From positions 2,232,001 to 2,296,000 of the forward strand of contig NZ_CP020384.1 of assembly GCF_002073975.1 (NCBI RefSeq): 64,000 nt of DNA, given 5' to 3'. Source of the stretch: Rhodovulum sp. MB263. Its GTDB lineage: Bacteria; Pseudomonadota; Alphaproteobacteria; Rhodobacterales; Rhodobacteraceae. Of the stretch, positions 15,390 to 26,683 are shown one piece after another (positions within the stretch are counted from its first letter, which is position 1; each line of letters starts with the position of its first letter). The notes below the pieces were generated by a model. It was not told where the DNA came from, searched no databases, and was given only the letters and a program-made list of their open reading frames with translations. A program made the position numbers and the translations under genes.

Positions 15390-18300
15390 TCACTCCGCTG
15401 GCGCTTTCCGGGAAACGTCATGGCGGGACCTGCCGCCGACCAGGCGGAGTATCGCGTCTTCCACGTCATCCACGAAGGTGTACATTACCGGGATCACGAG
15501 CAGGCTGAGCAACGTGGAGGTAACGAGGCCGCCTATCACGACCGTGGCCATGGGCTGTCGGAAACTCGGGTCCCCTTCGACAAGACTGAGTGCCGCGGGC
15601 AGCATGCCGGCCGACATTGCGACCGTGGTCATGATGATGGGGCGCGCGCGCTTATGGCACGCATCCACCAGCGCCTCGAACCGGCTCATGCCGCTGCGCC
15701 TGATCTCGATGGCATATTCGACCAGCAGGATCGAATTCTTCGACACGATGCCCATCAGAAGGAGCAGGCCGATGACGGCCGGCATCGAGAAGCTGGTGCC
15801 GGTCACGACGAGCGGGAAGAGCGCGCCGCCAAGGGCCAACGGCAAGGCCATGAGAATGGTGACCGGCTGCAGAAAGTCATGGAACAGCAGTACGAGTACC
15901 GCGTAGACGCAAAAGATCCCGATCGCCATCGCCGTCCCGAAGCTGGCGAAGAGTTCGGATTGCCGCTTCAGGTCGCCTTGTTCGATGAACCTTACGCCGT
16001 CGGGCAGGCTCCGGTACGCATCAAGCTGGCCCGCTTCGGCCATGACCTCCGAAAGGCTCCTCCCATTCAGTTCCAGCGTCACGGTGACGTTCCGCGATCG
16101 GTCGAGGCGATTGATCTCCGACGGAGATGATCCGATCGAGACGTCGGCGATGGCGCCCAGCGTGACATTGCCAGCCGTTCCCGCAACAGGGATCATTTCA
16201 ATGTCCTCGATCGACTGGCGGACGGACCGGTCAAGCAGTATCCGGATCGGGACCTGGCGCTCGGGCAGGTTCAGCTTTGACAAGGCGGAATCGTAGGCGC
16301 CCGCCGTGGCGACGCGGATCGCGTCGGAGATCGCCGTCGATGTCACGCCGTAGGATGCGGCGCGCGTCAGATCTGGCGTGATGACGATCTCGGGCGCCTG
16401 AAGCGCGGCCGAGGAGATGACGTTGCCAATGCCCTTGATGTTGGCGCGGATGTCTTCCTCGAGTGCGGACGCGGCCTCTTGCAGGCGTTCGGAGTTCTCG
16501 CCTGCCAGCGTCAGTTGAAGTTCTGTGCCGTTGCCTCCCGAACCGACCTCGATCCTTGCACCCGGTATGCCCGCGGCCGCCTCGCGAAGTCGGGCCTCGA
16601 TTTCGGTCTGGCCGACATCGCGATCATCGATGTTCGTGAGATTCACGACGATGGTTGCAGAGGTGACGGAACTCGTGTTTCCCCCGCCGCCCGGGTCGTT
16701 TTCGGTGGATGCGGTTCCCGTCACCTGGAACACACCGGTAACGTGATCGATCCCTGAGACCATTGCCGCGACCTGACGAGCGAGGGCGTCGGTTTCATGG
16801 ATCTTGGTCCCCGGTGGCATGGTGATGCTGACTTGCGTCTGGCTGTCGTCCGAGGCCGGGAAGAAACCGGTGGACAACTGGCCAAGCAGCAGGATGGTAA
16901 CGGCAAAGAACGCGATCACGCCGAGGACCGGAACCCACCGTCGTTTCAAGGCCCCCCGGATCACGCCCAGATAACGACGCATGATCCAGCCGTCCTTCCG
17001 CTTCGCCCGTGCCTTGGTCTTCATCATGTAGGCCGCCATCATCGGCGTTACGAAACGCGCCACGAGCAGCGAGCAGAACACCGCGACCGAAGCGGTGATA
17101 CCGAACTGCTTGAAGATGATGCCCACGACCCCGCCCATGAACGCCGTCGGCAGGAACACCGCAATCAGGGTGAAGGTTGTTGCGATAACCGCGAGGCCGA
17201 TTTCGTCGGCGGCCTCCATCGATGCCTGATAGGCCGGTTTGCCCATGTGCATGTGACGCTCGATGTTCTCGACCTCGACGATTGCGTCATCGACGAGGAT
17301 GCCGACCACCAGCGACATGGCGAGCAGCGTGACGGTATTCAGCGAATATCCGACCAGATCCATGACAAGAAATGTCGGGATCACCGACAGCGGCAACGCG
17401 ACCGCGGCGAGAAGTGTCGCACGCCAGTCGAGCAGGAAAAGGAAGACCACCAGAACCGCGATGGCCGCGCCCTCGTAAAGCATGTCCATTGACGCGTGGT
17501 AGTTCTGCTCGGTCGGCAGGATGGTGGTATACGCCTGTTCGATCTTGACCTGAGGATTGTCGGCGGCGAACGCTTCGACCGCTTCGGCCACGTTCTCGGT
17601 TACTGCCAGATCGGAATATCCCTTCAGACGCTTGATTTGCGCCGCGATGACAGACTTGCCGTTCTGATAGGCAAGCGAGGACAGGTCTGAATGCGTGTCC
17701 GTCACGGTGCCGAGTTCGTCCAGCCGGACCCAGCTTCCGGTCGGCAAGGGGATCGGCATCGCACGCAGCTCCTCCACATCGGCAGCGGCGGCGAGCAGGC
17801 GGACGGATTGCGAGGACGCGCCCACATCGGCCTGACCGCCCGAGAGGTCGCGCTGGACCTCTTGCAGGCGCGCGTTTACGTCGGAGGCGCTGAGGCCGAG
17901 GCCGTTCAGCAGATCGGGGTTCAGTTCGACCCGGATCTCGCGGTCGATGCCGCCGAGCCGGCCGACTTCGCCGACGCCCTCGACCGCCATCAACGCACGC
18001 TCGAAATCGTTGTCGATGAACCACGATAGTTCCGCATCGTCGAGCCGGTCTGAACTCACGACGTAGGTGACAAGTGGCGAACTGCCGATGTTGCTCTTGG
18101 ACACGGTGGGCGCGTCCATTTCGGTCGGCAAATCGCTCTCGGCCTGATCGACCGCGTTCTGGACCTCATCAAGGGCCACCTGCACGTCCTTGCCGACCTG
18201 GAAACTGACCGAGATATCCACGGAGCCGTCGGTGATGGTGGTCGTCACCGAGTCGAGCCTGTCGAGCCCCGTGAGTTGATCCTCGATCTTGCGGGCGACC

Positions 18301-18485
18301 TCGGTCTCGAGCTGCGCCGCCGCTGCCCCTTCGAGGGACGCCGAGACCGAAATCGTCGGCAGGTCCATGTCGGGAAAGTTCTGCACATCGAGACGCTGGA
18401 AGGCCATCAGCCCGGTCACGGTCAGAAGGAGGAACGCCAGGATCGGCGGAACCGGGTTTCGGATCGCCCAGGCCGAGAAGTTCAT
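15390..18485 (-). CDS. RND efflux transporter, inner-membrane permease (HAE1/AcrB-type)
   Basis: A 1031-residue resistance-nodulation-division permease with the duplicated six-TM plus large periplasmic domain layout. The first TM is PVPPILAFLLLTVTGLMAF. The proton-relay motif GILVDDAIVEVENIERH in TM4 carries the paired Asp residues, and the second half has LPLALGGALFPLVVTG. It pumps lipophilic or toxic substrates from the periplasm using the proton gradient. The start overlaps the adaptor stop by four bases, showing an operon with the adaptor and outer-membrane genes. Substrate unknown. Codon use is less GC-extreme than in neighbouring core genes, which hints at transfer. Confidence 0.95.
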   Translation of the reverse strand: MNFSAWAIRNPVPPILAFLLLTVTGLMAFQRLDVQNFPDMDLPTISVSASLEGAAAAQLETEVARKIEDQLTGLDRLDSVTTTITDGSVDISVSFQVGKDVQVALDEVQNAVDQAESDLPTEMDAPTVSKSNIGSSPLVTYVVSSDRLDDAELSWFIDNDFERALMAVEGVGEVGRLGGIDREIRVELNPDLLNGLGLSASDVNARLQEVQRDLSGGQADVGASSQSVRLLAAAADVEELRAMPIPLPTGSWVRLDELGTVTDTHSDLSSLAYQNGKSVIAAQIKRLKGYSDLAVTENVAEAVEAFAADNPQVKIEQAYTTILPTEQNYHASMDMLYEGAAIAVLVVFLFLLDWRATLLAAVALPLSVIPTFLVMDLVGYSLNTVTLLAMSLVVGILVDDAIVEVENIERHMHMGKPAYQASMEAADEIGLAVIATTFTLIAVFLPTAFMGGVVGIIFKQFGITASVAVFCSLLVARFVTPMMAAYMMKTKARAKRKDGWIMRRYLGVIRGALKRRWVPVLGVIAFFAVTILLLGQLSTGFFPASDDSQTQVSITMPPGTKIHETDALARQVAAMVSGIDHVTGVFQVTGTASTENDPGGGGNTSSVTSATIVVNLTNIDDRDVGQTEIEARLREAAAGIPGARIEVGSGGNGTELQLTLAGENSERLQEAASALEEDIRANIKGIGNVISSAALQAPEIVITPDLTRAASYGVTSTAISDAIRVATAGAYDSALSKLNLPERQVPIRILLDRSVRQSIEDIEMIPVAGTAGNVTLGAIADVSIGSSPSEINRLDRSRNVTVTLELNGRSLSEVMAEAGQLDAYRSLPDGVRFIEQGDLKRQSELFASFGTAMAIGIFCVYAVLVLLFHDFLQPVTILMALPLALGGALFPLVVTGTSFSMPAVIGLLLLMGIVSKNSILLVEYAIEIRRSGMSRFEALVDACHKRARPIIMTTVAMSAGMLPAALSLVEGDPSFRQPMATVVIGGLVTSTLLSLLVIPVMYTFVDDVEDAILRLVGGRSRHDVSRKAPAE

Positions 18486-19660
18486 TGTGCGGCCTCTGAA
18501 TTGCCTGAGATGTTATTCGCTTCCCGCGTCACCACGCGGACCTTCGATCCGTCGGACAGGAAGGCGCCCCCCGAGCGGACGACCTTGGCGTCGGTGGGGA
18601 ACTGACCGATGATCTCGACGCGATCCTCCTGCCGACGGCCGGTCTCGACCCGCCGCCGCGACACGGTCGCCGGATCGCCCTCGTTGAGGATGAAGACGTA
18701 AGAAAAGCCGTCCTGCAGCACGACGGATGAGGACGGGACGCTCAACGCCTCGCGCTTCCCTGTCTCGAAGATGCCGCTGACCATGATCCCGGTCTTAGGT
18801 TCGGGGCCACCTTCGGGCGTGTCCAGGGCCACATAGACGATGACGCGGCCGTTGGTTTCCGAGGCCGAGGGCGCAATCTGGCGAACCGTGCCGTGAATGT
18901 TGCCGATCGGGGCCGGAATGCGGACCTGACCGCCGATCTCAATGTTGCGCAATTTTGTTACCGGAACCTCGGCCTGCCATTCGACCCGACCGTCCCGGAT
19001 CATCCGGAACAATTCCTGCCCGGCGGACACCACATCGCCGATTGCCGCATCGGCCTGCGATATCACACCGTCGCTCACCGCGACGATCCGTGTCCGTTCG
19101 AGGTCCAGCCTCGCTGACGACAGCGCCGCCTCGGCCGAGGCGACGTCGGCCTTCGCCTTTCGCTCGGTGATCAGGTATTCCGAGATCTGTTGCTGCGAGA
19201 TCGATCCACCGCCTTCCAGTCGCCGCGCCCGATCGGCATCCGCAGAGGCCTGCTCGAGCTGCGCCTTGGCGCTGTCGAGCGAGGCAGCAAGCTGCTCGAT
19301 GTCGTTCTCCAGCGTCTTGCGGGACAGCGAGACCAGCAGATCGCCCTTCCTGACGGTATCGCCGACATCGACCGTCACCTCCTCGATCCTCTGGCCACCG
19401 ACCTCGGCCGAGATCAGGGCCTCGCGCCAGGCTGCAAGCCAGCCGCTGGCCTGGACTTCCACCGGCCAGGTGGCCTGTTCGGGGGACACGATCTCCACCG
19501 TCAGGGCGGTGGTGCCAGCGCTTTCCGGCGAGGCGATCGCACCGCCATCGCCATCCGACGACGCAGCATTCGGCTTGCCCGTGAGCGCCAGTGCCGCGCC
19601 GATCACCAGCAGGGCGACAAGGAGGAGGCCGAAGACAAGGAATTTTCTGGGTTTCGGCAT
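18482..19660 (-). CDS. RND efflux membrane-fusion (periplasmic adaptor) protein
   Basis: The adaptor bridges the RND pump and outer-membrane channel. It has an N-terminal anchor (KFLVFGLLLVALLVIGAALAL), lipoyl/barrel-sandwich halves (SGWLAAWREALISAEVGG; RIVAVSDGVISQADAAIGDVV) separated by a coiled-coil hairpin (NDIEQLAASLDSAKAQLEQA), and a beta-barrel near QVRIPAPIGN. ATG 19660 has GGAG six bases upstream and follows the channel stop at 19662 directly; a start at 19672 would overlap that stop by 11 bases. The four-base overlap with the permease gene supports one transcript. Confidence 0.93.
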   Translation of the reverse strand: MPKPRKFLVFGLLLVALLVIGAALALTGKPNAASSDGDGGAIASPESAGTTALTVEIVSPEQATWPVEVQASGWLAAWREALISAEVGGQRIEEVTVDVGDTVRKGDLLVSLSRKTLENDIEQLAASLDSAKAQLEQASADADRARRLEGGGSISQQQISEYLITERKAKADVASAEAALSSARLDLERTRIVAVSDGVISQADAAIGDVVSAGQELFRMIRDGRVEWQAEVPVTKLRNIEIGGQVRIPAPIGNIHGTVRQIAPSASETNGRVIVYVALDTPEGGPEPKTGIMVSGIFETGKREALSVPSSSVVLQDGFSYVFILNEGDPATVSRRRVETGRRQEDRVEIIGQFPTDAKVVRSGGAFLSDGSKVRVVTREANNISGNSEAAQ

Positions 19661-19661
19661 C

Positions 19662-21017
19662 TCAGGCTCCATTCGTTGTCTGTGTGCGGCGGGACCAGCC
19701 GCCCCCGACGGCCTTGTAGAGAGCGATCCGCTGCCGAAGCAGGCTTTCGCGCTGGGTGATGCGGGTAATCATCGCGGATTGCACTTGCCGCCGCGCCTCC
19801 TCCCGGTCGAGCAGCGATGCGCCGCCAGCCTCCCAGTCGTCGTCGATCGCGTCGAAATAGGCCTGGTATTCGGACACGAGTGTGGCGGCATTCGAGAGAT
19901 TTTTCGAGGCGGTGGAGAGCCGGGTCAGAGCCTCTTCCACCTCGCCAACGGCGGTGAATACCGTGGAGCGATAGCTTTCCGCCGAAGCCAGTGCCTGTTC
20001 GTTCGCCGTTCGTACCGCGGCGCGGCGCCGGCCGCCATCGAAGATCGGCAGCGACAAGGCTGGCCCGAAGCTCCAGCTCGAGGGGTCCGTTGCCGTCACC
20101 GTCCCGCCCAGGGTCAGCGAGGGATAAAGATCTGCCTTGGCGACATCTACATCGAGAAGCGTCGCCGAGAAGTCGAGCTCGGCCGCCACCACATCCGGAC
20201 GCTGCCGCAGCAGGTCGGCGGGCACCGATGACACTTTAAACGCCCGTGCCGTCGGCAGGCCGCCCCCCGAGCTCAGGATTGACCGCACCTCGGATTGCGG
20301 CATGCCAGCCGCCGTCGCAATGGTCTGCGCGATGACGTTGCAGTCGGCCTTCTGCGTCTCGAGCGAGATCCGCGAACTGGCGACATTCGCCCGCGCGAGC
20401 GACAGGTCCGCTGCGGCGCTGATGCCCGCCGCGACAAGGTCTTCCGTCGACCTGAGCGTCTGGGCCTGGGACGAGACCGCATCGCGATACACCGCCTCGA
20501 CCATCCGGCAGGCACGATACCGGACATAGCCGTCCGCGATCTCTGCCGCGAGCGAGACATAGGCCCCCGCGAAGGACACTTCCTCGGACCGGGCGCGCAG
20601 GGCGTCGGCGCCGGTTGCGGCGCGGGTCCTGCCGAACAGATCGAGCTCCCAGCTTGCATCGACGAGACCGGCGTTCGATGTGCTGCGCGCCGTCCCCTGG
20701 CCGTCGCTCACGGTCGTCGAAACCTCGCCGGTCACGCCGGGATAGAGGTCGGCGCCGGTCTGGGCGACCGTCGCCCGCGCCGCCAGCACGTTGGCCGCCG
20801 CCGTTCTGAGATCGGGGCTCGAGTCGCGGGCCTTCGCCAGAAGGCGGGTCAATTGCGGATCGCCCACCTGCGACCACCATTCCAGGTCGAGCGTCTCGGA
20901 GGCCTCCGGCGCAGCCGTGCCATAGCGCTCGGCCAGCGCAACCCGCGCATCCGGCTCGATTGTCGCCACGCTGCAGGCCGCGAGCGTGACAGTCGGAATG
21001 AGTAGGGTGAAACGCAT
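19662..21017 (-). CDS. RND efflux outer-membrane lipoprotein (NodT/OprM type)
   Basis: The 451-residue outer-membrane channel of the pump. The N terminus MRFTLLIPTVTLAACSV ends in a lipobox (TLAAC), so it is probably a lipoprotein. Two tandem OEP repeats follow, with hallmarks EWWSQVGDPQLTRLLAKA, SWELDLFGRTRAATGA and SWSFGPALSLPIFDGG. It is first in the operon, followed by adaptor and permease. The promoter lies in the 139-base gap shared with the divergent response regulator, so the two-component system probably controls the operon. Confidence 0.93.
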   Translation of the reverse strand: MRFTLLIPTVTLAACSVATIEPDARVALAERYGTAAPEASETLDLEWWSQVGDPQLTRLLAKARDSSPDLRTAAANVLAARATVAQTGADLYPGVTGEVSTTVSDGQGTARSTSNAGLVDASWELDLFGRTRAATGADALRARSEEVSFAGAYVSLAAEIADGYVRYRACRMVEAVYRDAVSSQAQTLRSTEDLVAAGISAAADLSLARANVASSRISLETQKADCNVIAQTIATAAGMPQSEVRSILSSGGGLPTARAFKVSSVPADLLRQRPDVVAAELDFSATLLDVDVAKADLYPSLTLGGTVTATDPSSWSFGPALSLPIFDGGRRRAAVRTANEQALASAESYRSTVFTAVGEVEEALTRLSTASKNLSNAATLVSEYQAYFDAIDDDWEAGGASLLDREEARRQVQSAMITRITQRESLLRQRIALYKAVGGGWSRRTQTTNGA

Positions 21018-21156
21018 GAAAATTCTCGGTAGCTGCTGCCCCCTTCTGCGCCTTCGCTTTGTAAAGTTGTGTTAAGATTTGGATAAGAAGGGTAAAATCC
21101 GCCACATGAGGCGCAGGAGGCGGTATGGCTCCAGCAGTGAGACACTGGAGGCCCAG

Positions 21157-21840
21157 ATGACTTCGGTCCTTTTGATTGATGACGACGTGGAGCTGACCGC
21201 CCTGCTGGCGCAATATCTGGAGCAGGAGGGCTTCGAGGTCTCCGTGGCCCATGACGGCGAGCGGGCGCTCGGGCGCATCGTGGGGGCGCGGGCCGAGATC
21301 GTCGTGCTCGACATCATGATGCCGAAGATCGACGGCCTCGAGGTGCTGCGCCGCATCCGCAAGGAAAGCGCGATCCCGGTCCTGATGCTCACCGCGCGCG
21401 GCGACGAGGTCGACCGGGTTTCGGGGCTTGATCTGGGCGCCGATGATTACCTCGCCAAGCCCTGCTCTCCCCGAGAGCTCGCGGCACGGCTTCGCGCGAT
21501 CCTTCGCCGGGCCCGGGGAACGCGCTCGAAGGTTGAAGCCGGGGTGTCGCGGGGCCCGCTCCAGATGGACGGGACGCGCCGTACCGCGTCCTGGCGCGGC
21601 GAGGAACTGAAGCTTACAGGGATCGAGTTCACCCTTCTCGAGGTGCTGGCCGGAGAACACGGGCGCCCGGTCTCGCGCGCAGATCTGTCGCTTCGCGGGC
21701 TTGGCAGACCGCTGGCACGCTACGACAGGTCCATCGACGTGCATATCTCTTCGATCCGCCAGAAGCTCGGCACTTTCGAAGACGGCCGCTCCCCGATCAT
21801 GAACGTCAGGGGCGTCGGCTACCTTTTCGTGGAGGAATAG
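21157..21840 (+). CDS. OmpR/CpxR-family response regulator
   Basis: This 227-residue two-domain regulator has the receiver-domain acidic pair in VLLIDDDVELTALL, the phosphoacceptor Asp in IVVLDIMMPKIDG and the switch Lys in DDYLAKPCSPREL. The C-terminal winged helix reads ELKLTGIEFTLLEVLA and SIDVHISSIRQKLG, a CpxR-like signature. ATG 21157 has CTGGAGG upstream and gives MTSVLLIDDD; the longer frame from 21079 is Arg-rich and unlike the family. The sensor kinase gene begins five bases after its stop. Divergence from the RND operon suggests that this operon is the target. Confidence 0.94.
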   Translation: MTSVLLIDDDVELTALLAQYLEQEGFEVSVAHDGERALGRIVGARAEIVVLDIMMPKIDGLEVLRRIRKESAIPVLMLTARGDEVDRVSGLDLGADDYLAKPCSPRELAARLRAILRRARGTRSKVEAGVSRGPLQMDGTRRTASWRGEELKLTGIEFTLLEVLAGEHGRPVSRADLSLRGLGRPLARYDRSIDVHISSIRQKLGTFEDGRSPIMNVRGVGYLFVEE

Positions 21841-21844
21841 GCCC

Positions 21845-23197
21845 GTGACGCTTCGCTTCTTTGCCGCGATCTGGGGGGTGCTGCTGCTGACCCTCGTGCT
21901 CTTCGGGCTGGTCATCGCCACGCTCGACTGGCAGCCCCCCGAGGAAGCGCAGCGTGAATTCGAACAGCGCATCCTCTCGCAACAGATGACCCACCTGGCA
22001 GAGATCGGCGGGGTCGAAAACGCACTCGCCATCTGGGCCATGCTGGCACCGGCGCACGAGGATTTCAAGGTCGCAGCCGATCCGTCCTGTCTGGTCAGCG
22101 GGGACATCCGGGACGAGGCGGGCGACTGTCTCTTCATCCGCGACGAACGTGCCTCCCGCACCTTCACGGGCCTGGCAAAGTTCGAACCGATGCTGACCCC
22201 GCTCGTCCTTGGAGCGGTGATCTCCTCCATCGCAGCCATCCTGCTGTCGCAATGGCTGGCTCGTCCGATCCGCATCGTGAGCCGTGGCCTCAAGACGCTC
22301 GCCGGTGGGGATCTGGGCGCGCGGCTCGGTCAGGACCTGCAAACTTCCAACAGGGAACTTCTCGAACTCGGGGCCGCCTTCGATCACGCCGCCGAACAGC
22401 TACAGGAGCTGTCGGTCGGACGGCAGCGGCTGTTCCACGACATCTCGCACGAGATACGTTCGCCGCTCGCCCGGCTCCGTGCCGCCGTGGAGCTCATGGA
22501 ATCGGATCCGCGCCGCTATTCCTCCATGCTTGGACAGATGGAAACCGACATCCGGCGGCTCGACCAGCTCATAGAGGAGATACTGATCCTCGCCCGATAC
22601 GAGAGAACCGAGGTTCCGCTGCGGATCGAGGCGCTCGATCTTGTGGAGCTGATCGAGCCGATCATTGCCGATGCCGCCTTCGAGGGCCAGGATCGAAACG
22701 TGCGCGTCGAATTCGAGGCTCCCGAGACGCTTCCCCTCAGAGGCGACGCAGAGCTCCTCCACAGGACATTCGAGAACATCATCCGGAATGCGATCAAGTA
22801 TTCGCCCAGGGACAGTCGTGTCGTTGTCCGGGCGGCCCGCACGACCTGCATTGCCACGATCAGGGTCGAGGATGAGGGGCACGGCGTGGCCCACGAAGAT
22901 CTTCCCCACCTGTTCACGCCATTCGTTCGCGTCGGACTGCAGAACGAGACCGCGGGCGTCGGGCTCGGCCTCGCCATAGCTTACCGGGCCGTTGCCCTGC
23001 ATGGCGGCCAGATCACGGCGACCAATCGGCCTGGCGGAGGGCTGAGCATGATCGTGAGCCTGCCTTTGGAGCATGGCAGCAGCGGCTCACACAAACCCCA
23101 TCAATGCGCCGTCCCGGAATTCAACATCAATTCCATTACCCGCCACAGGTCTTCTCTGGCCGATCTGAATGACCCGACTACCGAACGGAAGCTGTGA
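21845..23197 (+). CDS. Sensor histidine kinase partner of the RND regulator
   Basis: A 450-residue membrane kinase. TM1 is FFAAIWGVLLLTLVLFGLVI, followed by a periplasmic loop with two cysteines (PSCLVSG, GDCLFIR), TM2 near LVLGAVISSIAAILL and a HAMP linker. The phosphoacceptor is FHDISHEIRSPLARL. The HATPase N-box is ENIIRNAIKYSP and the G-box is GVGLGLAIAYRAV. It starts at GTG 21845 after GGAGGAATAGGCCC. The last ~45 residues beyond the usual IVSLPLE end are probably read-through into adjacent IS-derived DNA. Confidence 0.92.
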   Translation: MTLRFFAAIWGVLLLTLVLFGLVIATLDWQPPEEAQREFEQRILSQQMTHLAEIGGVENALAIWAMLAPAHEDFKVAADPSCLVSGDIRDEAGDCLFIRDERASRTFTGLAKFEPMLTPLVLGAVISSIAAILLSQWLARPIRIVSRGLKTLAGGDLGARLGQDLQTSNRELLELGAAFDHAAEQLQELSVGRQRLFHDISHEIRSPLARLRAAVELMESDPRRYSSMLGQMETDIRRLDQLIEEILILARYERTEVPLRIEALDLVELIEPIIADAAFEGQDRNVRVEFEAPETLPLRGDAELLHRTFENIIRNAIKYSPRDSRVVVRAARTTCIATIRVEDEGHGVAHEDLPHLFTPFVRVGLQNETAGVGLGLAIAYRAVALHGGQITATNRPGGGLSMIVSLPLEHGSSGSHKPHQCAVPEFNINSITRHRSSLADLNDPTTERKL

Positions 23198-23530: not shown

Positions 23531-24030
23531 TCATCGCGCGACAGGAAGTCGCCTTCCCGCCAGCCGGAAACACACCCGGATTTCATTGCCGCATGGGCCG
23601 CTGCGGAAGCCGGAAGCGCCGATCCGCTGGCGAAGGCTGCCCGCGTCGCTCCGGTGGCCATTGGCTCCCTGCTCGCGCCGCGCGGCCCGGAGATAGCCGG
23701 TCTTCGTCTTTCCTTTGCCCGGATCCAGCCTCGGGGCGATGGTTTCGTCAACGTAGGGTCGGGAGCTGTCCGCCATCAGCCGCCTGGCCATATGGTCGAC
23801 CATGGCGGCGATCCGCCCCGGTCCGACCCATCCAGTCGGCCAGCACCGAGCGGTCGATCGACACCCCATGCCGCGCCATCACCACGGCCTGCCGGTTCAG
23901 CGACATGTACTCGGAATGCTCTGAGACGGCGATCTGGGCCAGCAGCGCCCCGGTGATGGTGAAGGGGTCGTGAGCAAGGCGCCCTGCGGATGGGCAATGC
24001 GGGGCGCATCTGCCCTGGCATCGGTCATCC
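23531..24030 (-). mobile_element. IS66-family transposase (TnpC) remnant
   Basis: Broken minus-strand frames match the central domain of IS66 TnpC. In order: PRIAHPQGALLT, then LLAQIAVSEHSEYMSLNRQA, VSIDRSVLADWMG, MVDHMARRLMADSSRPYVDE and TIAPRLDPGKGKTKTGYL. The PYVDE acidic residue and DPGKGKTKTGYL match the family core. Frame breaks occur near 23830 and 23960 and neither N nor C end is present, so it is inactive. It fills the gap between the sensor gene and the TonB receptor. Confidence 0.78.
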
Positions 24031-24079: not shown

Positions 24080-24104
24080 CGCTATATAGCTTGACAATAT
24101 AACG
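24080..24104 (+). promoter_or_regulatory. Mo-box-like palindromic operator upstream of the TonB receptor
   Basis: CGCTATAT (24080-24087), nine bases, then ATATAACG (24097-24104) form an imperfect palindrome, with one mismatch between the arms. ModE-family molybdate regulators bind palindromes of the type CGnTATAT-N-ATATAnCG. The site lies 46 bases before the receptor start. A second copy with the same arm spacing is at 26009-26035. Regulator identity is inferred from the motif only. Confidence 0.65.
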
Positions 24105-24150
24105 AATCGCCGCCGCCGCGCGACGGCGTCTGCAAGAATGGGGGACAGAC

Positions 24151-25168
24151 ATGTCAGTGCTTCTACGGCTGGTGCGAACCGGCTGTCTCGTGTCGTGCGG
24201 CTTCGGCCTTCCGGCCCTTGCCCAGCAGTCCCCGGACGGGCCGGACGAGGTCTTCGCGCTTGGCGAGATCGTCGTCCGGTCGTCCGACGAGGCCGCGCAG
24301 GGCGGCACCAGCAGCACGATCGGCGCCGAAGAGATCAGGCGCACCAACCGCGCCACACTGGATGACGCGCTGCGCAGCCTGCCCGGTATCTCGGTCGGCA
24401 ATACCGGCGGCTCGCGGAACGAGCGCCTGATCTTCGTGCGCGGGTTCGACCGCTATCAGGTGCCGCTCTACGTGGACGGGATCCGCGTCTACCTGCCCGC
24501 GGACAACCGGCTCGACTTCGGGCGCTTCCTGACGCCGGACCTTTCGGAAACCCAGATCCAGAAGGGCTATGTCTCGGTGCTGAACGGGCCGGGTGGCATG
24601 GGAGGCGCGATCAACCTGGTGACCCGGCAGCCGACCGAAGCTTTCGAGGGCGAGGCACGGCTCGGACTGGAGGCGGGTAACCGCGGCGGCCTGACGACGC
24701 GCACCGGCTATTTGTCGCTGGGCAGCCGGATGGAGCGGTTCTTTGTCCAGGGCAGCTACCTCACGCGCGACAATGACGGGTATTACCTGTCGCACGACTA
24801 CACGCCGACCGAGGTTCAGGGGGGCGGGACGCCGCGACTATTCCGACAGCGAGGACAGCCGCCTGAACCTGAAATTCGGCTTCACCCCCAACGCGACCGA
24901 CGAATACGTCCTGAGCTATACCCGGCAGGAGTGGTCGAAGAAGGCGCCCTATAATGTCGATCAGCCGGTGCGGGGTATCACGCCCGCGCCGCTGCCCACC
25001 GGCGCCAGCTATCAGCGCGACTGGGAATGGCCGGAATGGGATCTCGAGGGGCTGACCTTCTATTCGACCACCGATCTGGGGGGCGGCGCCTGGCTGAAGA
25101 CCAAGCTCTTCCACCATCAGTTCGACAATGTGCTGTCGGCCTATGACGACTACACCCATAGCAGCCAG
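24151..25168 (+). pseudogene. TonB-dependent outer-membrane receptor, frameshifted and truncated
   Basis: The gene encodes a signal peptide (LVSCGFGLPALAQQ), a plug domain (DDALRSLPGISVGNTGG, RLIFVRGFDRYQVPLYVDG, VLNGPGGMGGAINLVTRQP) and the first beta strands of the barrel. A run of six G at 24819-24824 marks a one-base shift: the frame that began at 24151 leaves coding register and the +2 frame continues with YSDSEDSRLNLKFGFTPNA to about 25168. There the coding sequence stops in mid-barrel and joins the inverted end of a FecB-like gene. Only about half of a normal receptor remains, so it cannot be functional. The Mo-box-like operator upstream suggests a role in metal-oxyanion or metallophore uptake. 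Confidence 0.87.
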
Positions 25169-25368
25169 CCGACCATGGCATCGGGTTTCAGCGTGTAAAG
25201 CAGCGTGGCCGCCGGCGGACCCGCCGCGAAGACCCGCCTTGGGTCGGCCGGCACCTCGATCTGGCGGCCGGTGGCGTCGGTGATCGTGCGGGTTTCGGCG
25301 GCCAACGCCGCCGCCACCCCCAGGGCAAGCGCCCCGGCCATCAGCGCGGCCAGGCGAAGGCGCATCAT
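25165..25368 (-). pseudogene. FecB/BtuF-type ABC substrate-binding protein, 5' fragment
   Basis: The minus strand encodes a start MMRLRLAALMAG, a signal peptide ending AALAAETR, then TITDATGRQIEVPADPRRV and AGPPAATLLYTLKPDAMVGW. This is the N-terminal lobe of type III (siderophore, B12 or molybdate MolA-like) binding proteins. It ends after about 65 residues where it meets the truncated TonB receptor from the other strand. Its start overlaps the end of the TrmO-like gene, so the two formed an operon. The rest of the transporter is absent. Confidence 0.83.
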
Positions 25369-25826
25369 GGCAGGATGCCGAATTCGGGCTTGAGATCGAC
25401 CAGCGGCGTGCCGTCGATGCAGTCGAGCCCGCGCACCGTCAGGACATTTCCCTCGACATGCAACAGCCGGACAAGCGACGAGGCAATGGGGTTCGGGCGA
25501 AGCGGCGAGCGCAGGGCGAAGGTTCCCCGCGAGCCGTCGCCGAAGGAGGGGTTCTGCCGCACGATATCGCGCCGCGACAGATGCATCCAGTACAGGACCT
25601 GCATCCGGTCCTTGCCCGCGACGCCCTCGAGCACCGAATGCCAGCGGGCGTCCAGTTCGATCCGGCAATCGGGGCCGCCCACCGGATCGCCGCGCCTCGG
25701 GCAGTCGGCACGCTGAGTCCAGGGCGTGCGGATCCGGCCGATGAACCACAGACCGGCGTCGAAGGCGTCGGGTACGGCCACGCATTCCTCATGCGGACGC
25801 AGGCTATCGGGGGCGGCCAGGGTCAT
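25365..25826 (-). CDS. TrmO-like protein (TsaA/UPF0066 family, SAM-dependent)
   Basis: The 153-residue protein from ATG 25826 (MTLAAPDSLRPHEE) has the TsaA beta-barrel signature. The segments are GLWFIGRIRTPW, VLYWMHLSRRDIV and SPLRPNPIASSLVRLL, then the C-terminal DCIDGTPLVDLKP. TrmO methylates t6A37 in tRNA using SAM; shorter stand-alone members like this one also occur next to FecB-type transporters, where their role is less clear. It precedes the truncated FecB gene with a short overlap, and a Mo-box-like palindrome lies 183 bases upstream, so it may be an accessory of that uptake locus rather than a tRNA enzyme. Confidence 0.8.
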   Translation of the reverse strand: MTLAAPDSLRPHEECVAVPDAFDAGLWFIGRIRTPWTQRADCPRRGDPVGGPDCRIELDARWHSVLEGVAGKDRMQVLYWMHLSRRDIVRQNPSFGDGSRGTFALRSPLRPNPIASSLVRLLHVEGNVLTVRGLDCIDGTPLVDLKPEFGILP

Positions 25827-26008
25827 GAGCGTCGCCCCGCTTGTGCCAGTGGGCGCGTCCCGTGGACCCGGCGGTCTGAAGGCCCTGCAGGATGCGAGAC
25901 GCCCCACCCCGTTCCGTCACGTTCTTTCGGCGTCATCGTCCTTCGCTCTCCTGCCATCTTTTCTGCCGGTCCGGGCGGGAGCGTCTTTTCGACGGCGCGG
26001 TCCGGCAT

Positions 26009-26035
26009 TCGCTATATTGCCAGCATATATAGCGA
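26009..26035 (-). promoter_or_regulatory. Mo-box-like perfect palindrome upstream of the TrmO-like gene
   Basis: TCGCTATAT (26009-26017) and ATATAGCGA (26027-26035) are perfect 9-bp inverted arms around nine bases. Arm sequence and spacing match the site at 24080-24104. It faces the TrmO-fecB pair on the minus strand. No gene begins on the plus strand immediately after it. Confidence 0.65.
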
Positions 26036-26683
26036 TGCGCAAAGCAGCAGGGTCAAGGGCACTTCCGCGTCGACCGGTGGCCTCACGGTCGGGGGCCAAT
26101 GGGTCTGCCTGATTGTTGGGCATCTTGCCGCCACACCGGCATGGCCCTGCGGAATGCGGTCCATGAGGACAGCTTATCGGCAGCATCGGCCTTCGCCGCC
26201 CCGAAACGTCGGCGCGCCGATATCGGTCATCGCGGGCGCTCGCGACGGGGGAACCTCCTGCCAACGGCGTGACGTCTTGCGGATGGGAATGACGGCGAGG
26301 CCGCCTCACTCGTGGATCGCGAGGCGAGAGCGATGGGTCCGCAACCTGCGGTGCGGCCCCGAGGCGTGCCGGGACCAGAGCGGCCACGAAGGCAGCCGGG
26401 ACAACAGCAGGACCTCCGGAACGGGCGCCCTGCCCCCGGTGGCTTTCGGCTCAGACAGCCTCGGCGAAGGGGGCCGATCGCCATCCGGGTCCCCGAGCGT
26501 GAACCGAACCCCGGCCTGCGCCTCCTTCACCGGCATGGCATCATCCGCGACGATGATACGGGCCCTGGCCTTGTCGAGGGATCGCCACGCGGTGGCCGTA
26601 CACTCCGGATGGCCCTCTTTTCGCGGCCCCGGGGCAAGGCCGACAGGCAGAGCCGGTCCGACAGCAGCGCCCGAACCGGCAAA
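26036..26683 (+). other. About 650 bases without a recognisable gene
   Basis: Open frames exist on the minus strand (for example one reading ARARIIVADDAMPVKEAQ at about 26570-26520) but break repeatedly and match no family I recognise. This is probably decayed accessory DNA between the Mo-box-like site and the acpP terminator. Confidence 0.35.

Follow-up and report, generated by a model that had tools for sequence, protein, structure and literature searches.

What did a damaged locus of Rhodovulum sp. MB263, in which two matching palindromes enclose the remains of genes for a TonB-dependent receptor and a FecB-type binding protein, once take up, and under whose control? The locus lies in a stretch of 64,000 nucleotides of contig NZ_CP020384.1 (hereafter the window), and we compared it with the rest of the genome and with related genomes.

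Two Mo-boxes at a broken locus

The first palindrome, CGCTATAT-N9-ATATAACG, occupies positions 24080..24104 and lies 5' of the TonB receptor gene, 46 bp from its start codon. The second, CGCTATAT-N9-ATATAGCG, occupies 26010..26034, has one further matching base at either side, and lies 5' of the trmO-fecB transcription unit. Using the pattern CGYTATAT-N9-ATATARCG with up to 2 mismatches, we found only these two sites in the entire 64-kb window and none in 100 dinucleotide shuffles. The pair of operators that an earlier, sequence-only reading of this DNA had placed on either side of the locus was thus recovered at the same positions, far above chance. In the whole genome (4.16 Mb), the same search returned six sites: the two at the locus, one directly 5' of a ModE gene that is followed by modA, one at a modE/trmO pair, one at anfA, and a sixth that falls within a 625-aa ORF. 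At up to 3 mismatches the genome-wide count was at background level (15 matches vs 22 for the reversed control pattern). Two matches to ModE-type regulators scored above the NCBIfam cut-off in this genome. The Mo-box recognized by ModE is an inverted repeat of CGNTATAT half-sites, spaced by 8-9 bp and located at molybdenum genes; the window palindromes agree with this description in their inverted half-sites, their spacing and their location. With five of the six genomic sites at the locus or at Mo-linked genes and the sixth inside an ORF, rather than at iron or unrelated genes, the earlier proposal that the arms are of the Mo-box type held up. We are confident in reading the palindrome as a Mo-box, to which a ModE- or Mop-type protein would bind. 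The anfA site (L016:14466-14490) stands 5' of a sigma-54 activator that we read as anfA, and anfG occurs in the same stretch.

Both operators could be aligned between Rhodovulum species, and Mo-box 1 was kept at each of the five Rhodovulum loci whose receptor is intact, with 0 or 1 mismatch and 50 bp to the start codon. On the other side of the locus, TTGACC at 26051..26056 (minus strand) is a candidate -35 element of the trmO promoter. This candidate -35 region, CCCTTGACCCT, was kept in 5/5 aligned loci, the window included, and the trmO-side box, which comes after the conserved TTGACC, would overlie the -10 region.

Between the operators, the receptor, TrmO-like and fecB genes have the positions noted earlier, and the locus is indeed broken. 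The N-terminal part of the receptor (plug, residues about 1-226) is encoded at 24151..24828 on the plus strand (Pfam Plug, 5e-18) and is 85% identical to the intact receptor of the congeneric locus L093; the plug domain alone was matched by Pfam. The gene continues in another frame at 24821..25168 (plus strand, residues about 224-339), after which the rest of the barrel is gone. A blastn comparison of the window with L089-L093 located the deletion junction at 25161..25168 (unstranded), as an 8-bp overlap of two alignments. Relative to L089 (R. visakhapatnamense), about 3.7 kb comprising the receptor C-terminus, the ATPase, the permease and most of fecB has been removed, fusing the frameshifted and truncated receptor gene to the start of fecB. 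What is left of this fecB-type (MolA-like) gene, whose start codon was taken from the sequence, is an N-terminal fragment to residue about 70 at 25162..25368 (minus strand), with 91% identity to L093 FecB over residues 26-70. The TrmO-like gene alone is whole: 25365..25826 (minus strand) encodes an intact AdoMet-barrel protein of 153 aa (Pfam TrmO_N, 3e-26; 78% identity to the L093 copy; match to structure 3okx with E 4e-40), and ends on a stop codon that overlaps the start codon of fecB. No second fecB of the same type was found in this genome at E <=1e-30. The uptake system is lost in the window's own genome, where the two operators and the TrmO-like gene persist. An IS66 transposase remnant adjoins the locus at 23531..24029 (minus strand; Pfam DDE_Tnp_IS66, 1.4e-9 in one frame and 2e-4, under the Pfam cut-off, in the other), as do minus-strand RND efflux genes at 15390-23197 (an AcrB-type pump, an HlyD-type fusion protein and an OEP outer-membrane protein) and a plus-strand sensor kinase.

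Intact loci and the receptor family

The same five of 15 congeners carried both fecB and an intact receptor, whose open frames span 714-720 aa with 85-92% identity over the searched fragment; the five include R. euryhalinum, R. steppense, R. visakhapatnamense and R. kholense. In L089, L091, L092 and L093 the receptor is accompanied by a convergent run of trmO, fecB, permease and ATPase, and these four loci, the ones covered to both ends, have a box at each end with 0 to 2 mismatches. The contig ends within the remaining locus, L090 (R. kholense). The layout that the sequence-only reading had proposed to look for intact in relatives was found there, with gene order and both boxes kept in 4/4 fully covered loci and no palindrome missing. 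As in MolABC-type importers, the relatives combine a binding protein of the FecB fold with a single FecCD permease and a single ATPase, and both PF07715 (plug) and PF00593 (beta-barrel) were found in the L093 receptor. DUF2478, modE and modA lie next to the locus in L092 and L093; in L092 the receptor box sits between the receptor and the second modE. A resolvase-domain ORF lies near the intact locus at L089:4939-5424, and recombinase- or transposase-like ORFs were seen by eye in L090 and L091.

A contig scan with eight fecB proteins yielded 326 relatives, from which 80 loci were kept; duplicate contigs (L089/L104, L090/L105, L092/L103, L093/L102, L050/L116, L051/L128) were each counted once here as well as in the tree and the upstream box counts given below. 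Neighboring genes were called by tblastn within the fetched stretch, and some contigs are short. Mop, ModE, MOT1 or TupA was present in 59 of these loci (Mop in 51, ModE in 13, MOT1 in 10, TupA in 8), and TrmO in 48. None of the four Mo/W genes was called in the other 21, some of them on short contigs, which counts against a molybdenum function. No TupA match was obtained in the Rhodovulum loci L102-L105. The 8-bp spacing dominated the palindromes of the fecB loci (39 sites at <=2 mismatches vs 1.0 in shuffles), followed by the 9-bp spacing (15 sites, 0 in shuffles); some matches with gaps of 6, 7 or 10 were the same sites in another register. Similarity clusters inspected by eye in the fetched flanks revealed no recurring metallophore biosynthesis family, and no recurring iron gene was recognized in them. 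A receptor was found in 21 of the 80 loci, and 20 of these are family members, 17 of them full length; L138 (23% identity) is counted among the 21 and lies outside the family, and the family receptors of L111, L142 and L143 are fragmentary. The receptor is frame-split or partial at L111:7365-9000 (Rhodobacter sp. SGA-6-6) and L143:6538-8570 (Paracoccus kondratievae), possibly as decayed copies.

In a Neomegalonema (L112:12632-16883), a receptor-mop-trmO-fecB cluster has neighboring genes with Pfam domains of formate dehydrogenase and molybdopterin oxidoreductase. At L097:3921-10114 and in L098, the surroundings of a distant receptor and fecB include genes that by eye resemble xdhC, selD and an accessory gene of a Se-dependent Mo hydroxylase. 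DUF2478 (PF10649), an uncharacterized Mo-linked family, recurs between receptor, Mop and fecB (L234:10516-11049, L107:8716-9228). The gene names modB, modD, xdhC and selD are tentative and follow from our reading or from domain matches.

The receptor fragment had no match in the 294 other genomes of a family search over 295 genera (E <=1e-30), a result that misleads as to its spread since the congeners and the contig scan hold it. A receptor profile search of 398 genomes of the phylum, which scored at most two candidates per genome, matched at least eight genomes, so that 8/398 is a lower bound. Seven of the eight lie outside Alphaproteobacteria, the eighth being of the same class (G351, L096). 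Five of the seven have, in one run with the receptor, either a gene of ModE type or DUF2478 together with FecB, permease and ATPase: L234 combines modE, a perfect box, receptor, DUF2478, fecB, permease and ATPase; L235 and L236 have receptor, DUF2478, fecB, permease and ATPase, with a weak TupA match in between in L235; and L231 and L232 contain a gene of ModE type, with a box ahead of the receptor. L237 carries fecB, permease, ATPase and a ModD-like gene, with a perfect box ahead of fecB, and the box is the only molybdenum link of L233, whose binding protein is of another kind. No molybdenum link was seen at L096 and L101. At L233:7568-10912 and L096:6738-11644 the binding protein beside the receptor is not fecB (SBP_bac_6 by Pfam in L233; alike by eye in L096).

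Of 35 receptor loci, the window included, 25 have a box with at most 3 mismatches in 14 in the 300 bp ahead of the receptor, whose start is partly approximate in these counts, compared with 57 of 1400 random stretches of those loci and 0 of 8 unrelated receptors; in 17 of the 25 the box lies 40-60 bp from the receptor start. The box was absent from this interval in the other ten (L096, L097, L098, L101, L111, L112, L115, L142, L235, L237), a point against a molybdenum-controlled importer. A chance palindrome is ruled out by the shuffles, the site counts in fecB loci and these upstream counts. In a tree that left out L099, L100, L111, L142 and L089, and in which the label "Mo" was given partly by receptor similarity, the receptor family fell to one side of a branch (100/100; 24 vs 9 rows). 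Among the matches listed, the receptor's best NCBIfam scores were to haem/haemoglobin and siderophore receptor models, all under cut-off.

Proposed cargo and control of the intact system

An AlphaFold2 model of the R. euryhalinum FecB-type protein (21 sequences, pLDDT 89) had its best matches in 4pag and 4ovk, followed by 4hn9 and 2etv; MolA (3psa) came at rank 7 (E 3e-18), with about 22% identity in the fold alignment. The structures 4hn9 and 2etv are titled iron or putative Fe(III) transporters, and the iron-binding YiuA follows close after MolA. By profile, MolA was matched with E 1e-22, and 4pag, 4ovk, 4hn9, 6b2x and 9ht5/9hrj scored better; 4pag, 4ovk and 4hn9 are thus above MolA by both measures and 2etv by fold alone. 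The predicted match supports a MolA-type fold, not a ligand. The kinship to MolABC that the sequence-only reading had suggested is borne out by gene content and predicted fold, with other structures nearer in fold than MolA.

The direct basis for assigning a function consists of the operators, the gene content, the conservation of the layout, the genomic link to Mo genes and the predicted fold of the binding protein. Because boxes occur at Mo genes and 5' of receptors, and because of the congener layout, the Mop/ModE/MOT1/TupA neighbors, the tree, the loci outside the class and the MolA fold match, we consider it likely that the intact locus specified a molybdate-repressed TonB receptor and MolABC-type importer of molybdenum or tungsten, or of a chelate, which was lost here. 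A molybdate-loaded repressor of the ModE/Mop type would sit on both Mo-boxes and shut off the receptor as well as the convergent operon of trmO-like gene, fecB, permease and ATPase. When molybdenum is scarce, the repressor would leave the boxes, and the TonB-energized receptor would bring a molybdenum or tungsten species into the periplasm, either the oxyanion itself or a scarce chelate, the latter being perhaps the likelier. There a MolA-like protein would capture it, and a BtuCD/MolBC-type importer with one permease and one ATPase would carry it inside. In the usual view molybdate crosses the outer membrane by passive means, and the ability of free molybdate to pass porins counts against the need for a TonB receptor. 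If the proposed system is real, uptake of molybdenum or tungsten at the outer membrane would be active and regulated, and hence probably concerned with a scarce or chelated form.

The receptor and the FecB importer might instead have taken up an iron complex, with Mo-boxes in place since iron demand climbs when cells switch to Fe-only nitrogenase under molybdenum shortage. The Mo-box at anfA with anfG nearby is consistent with such a role, and so are the iron-complex binders among several of the best fold matches and the haem and siderophore types of the best receptor models (under cut-off). Against it stands the distribution of anfG, found in MB263, whose locus is broken, and in 0/15 congeners and 0/21 other receptor-bearing genomes (the two sets share 5); in addition, the neighboring Mop, MOT1 and TupA are oxyanion genes. 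Iron for Fe-nitrogenase is disfavored by this distribution and appears very improbable, and it is suggestive, as a single case, that the sole tested genome with anfG has a broken locus. A receptor for siderophore-like metal chelates that delivered iron and molybdenum alike, with molybdenum control as fine tuning, is unlikely. Catechol siderophores of Azotobacter do bind molybdate, the close fold matches include iron-complex proteins, and the lack of a recognized recurring metallophore biosynthesis family would allow a foreign or shared chelator; the association with Mo/W genes, however, recurs in several families and outside the class, and no recurring iron gene was recognized in the clusters inspected by eye.

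Tungstate or a tungsten complex, rather than molybdate, would be a sub-case of the molybdenum-or-tungsten importer that we prefer, and ModE senses either oxyanion. This narrower version seems rather unlikely: TupA is found in 8/80 fecB loci, tup genes lie by 6/40 loci of TrmO-like homologs, and the L112 cluster adjoins subunits of a formate dehydrogenase that is possibly a tungsten enzyme, but the link to Mop (51/80) is commoner than that to TupA, which had no match in Rhodovulum L102-L105.

Parts of the proposed importer have known counterparts. According to the available text of PMC6925177, MopA and MopB of R. capsulatus repress mopA-modABC, anfA and morAB through Mo-boxes with molybdate. 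The window's genome resembles that regulon in having two ModE genes and an anfA box, the ModE pairs being compared by presence; unlike the proposed system, the regulon is described in a main text from which "TonB" is absent. H. influenzae MolABC (HI1470-1472) is presented in the available text of PMC4031551 as a type II importer with a molybdate- and tungstate-binding MolA; it shares with the present system a FecB-fold binding protein (fold match 3psa), a FecCD-type permease and an ATPase, and differs from it in the low identity of the binding proteins and in a main text that lacks "TonB". The Zur regulon of Caulobacter, as set out in the available part of PMC4176598, likewise places TonB-dependent outer-membrane proteins under a metal-responsive repressor, although there the metal is zinc and the repressor Zur, and here they would be Mo/W and ModE. 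In the T6SS-ModA-IcmP system of P. aeruginosa, as far as the available part of PMC8602904 describes it, an outer-membrane protein is also proposed for molybdate acquisition, but IcmP is described as an insulin-cleaving metalloproteinase and not as a TonB receptor, and the mechanism is another one. The main text of PMC5343134 does not treat ModE, and a 2024 review of TonB substrates contains no word starting with "molybd", nor any starting with "zinc" or "nickel". Among the literature matches listed, with RegPrecise and the subscription literature outside the scope of the search, none concerned a TonB-dependent molybdate or tungstate receptor. The parts are thus known and the combination was not found described in this search; an earlier prediction may exist. 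For receptors of this family, which score under every NCBIfam cut-off among the matches listed, the results point to a probable function, and they provide a set of organisms for tests (Rhodovulum, Paracoccus, Neomegalonema, Mesorhizobium).

The TrmO-like protein

The gene that survives in the window encodes an AdoMet-barrel protein like the tRNA methyltransferase TrmO/YaeB. As given in the available text of PMC4132733, TrmO contacts AdoMet through Gln25, Arg92, Asp125 and Lys136, and a C-terminal DPRxxY domain, specific to gamma- and beta-proteobacterial and mammalian homologs, is needed in E. coli TrmO. The window protein keeps the equivalents of Arg92, Asp125 and Lys136. It differs from TrmO/YaeB in that Arg replaces Gln25 and in that it stops after the barrel, so that two features required in E. 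coli TrmO, the Gln25 contact and the DPRxxY domain, are missing; against TIGR00104 the L093 copy scores 84.7 bits, under the cut-off of 93.25. Since the DPRxxY domain is lineage-restricted, its absence is not peculiar to this locus. RPA0152 (3okx) has His at the Gln25 position, and its crystal nevertheless held AdoMet, according to the available text of PMC4132733; AdoMet binding is therefore likely kept in the TrmO-like protein, and the change to Arg is weak evidence.

Arg was present at this position in 15/15 receptor-linked homologs with a readable motif among L102-L181. The receptor-linked L094, outside that range, has CPRQG and thus Gln, giving 15/16 in total. Gln occurred in 15/27 homologs from receptor-less fecB loci and in 33/38 of a wider set; the motif expression read 0/21 generic TrmO proteins, so these counts cover the locus-linked and wider homolog sets. 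The change from Gln to Arg may just reflect the descent of a single branch. A Mo/W or fecB gene lay within about 9 kb in 10 of 40 loci of TrmO-like homologs, drawn from 49 closer homologs with the window's own genome left out, and tup genes were close to six of the 40. Of a further 21 loci, those of 20 remoter homologs plus the own-genome one, 0/21 had such a neighbor. TrmO as a general molybdenum marker is rejected by these two counts, which make the TrmO-like gene a recurrent and not a constant partner. Its earlier description as a recurrent member of such loci thus stands, on the strength of the 48/80 fecB loci, in the sense of frequent but not obligatory presence.

A role of the TrmO-like protein outside tRNA is possible. 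We regard as doubtful, although conceivable, the fuller proposal of a proteobacterial TonB receptor family dedicated to Mo/W uptake, under ModE repression and linked with a MolABC-like importer, in which a TrmO-fold protein would have been turned to the handling of oxyanions or metallophores and not to tRNA modification; its odds are reduced because L094 keeps Gln and 3okx holds AdoMet without it. The association nonetheless provides a lead on why TrmO-fold genes recur by Mo/W transport genes. Of the three TrmO-like genes that we found in the MB263 genome, two lie at Mo-boxes. The second (trmO2), 59% identical to the window's, adjoins modE2, the second ModE gene, from which it diverges, and the Mo-box at L015:9816-9840 (G000:C1:1047815-1047839) separates the two.
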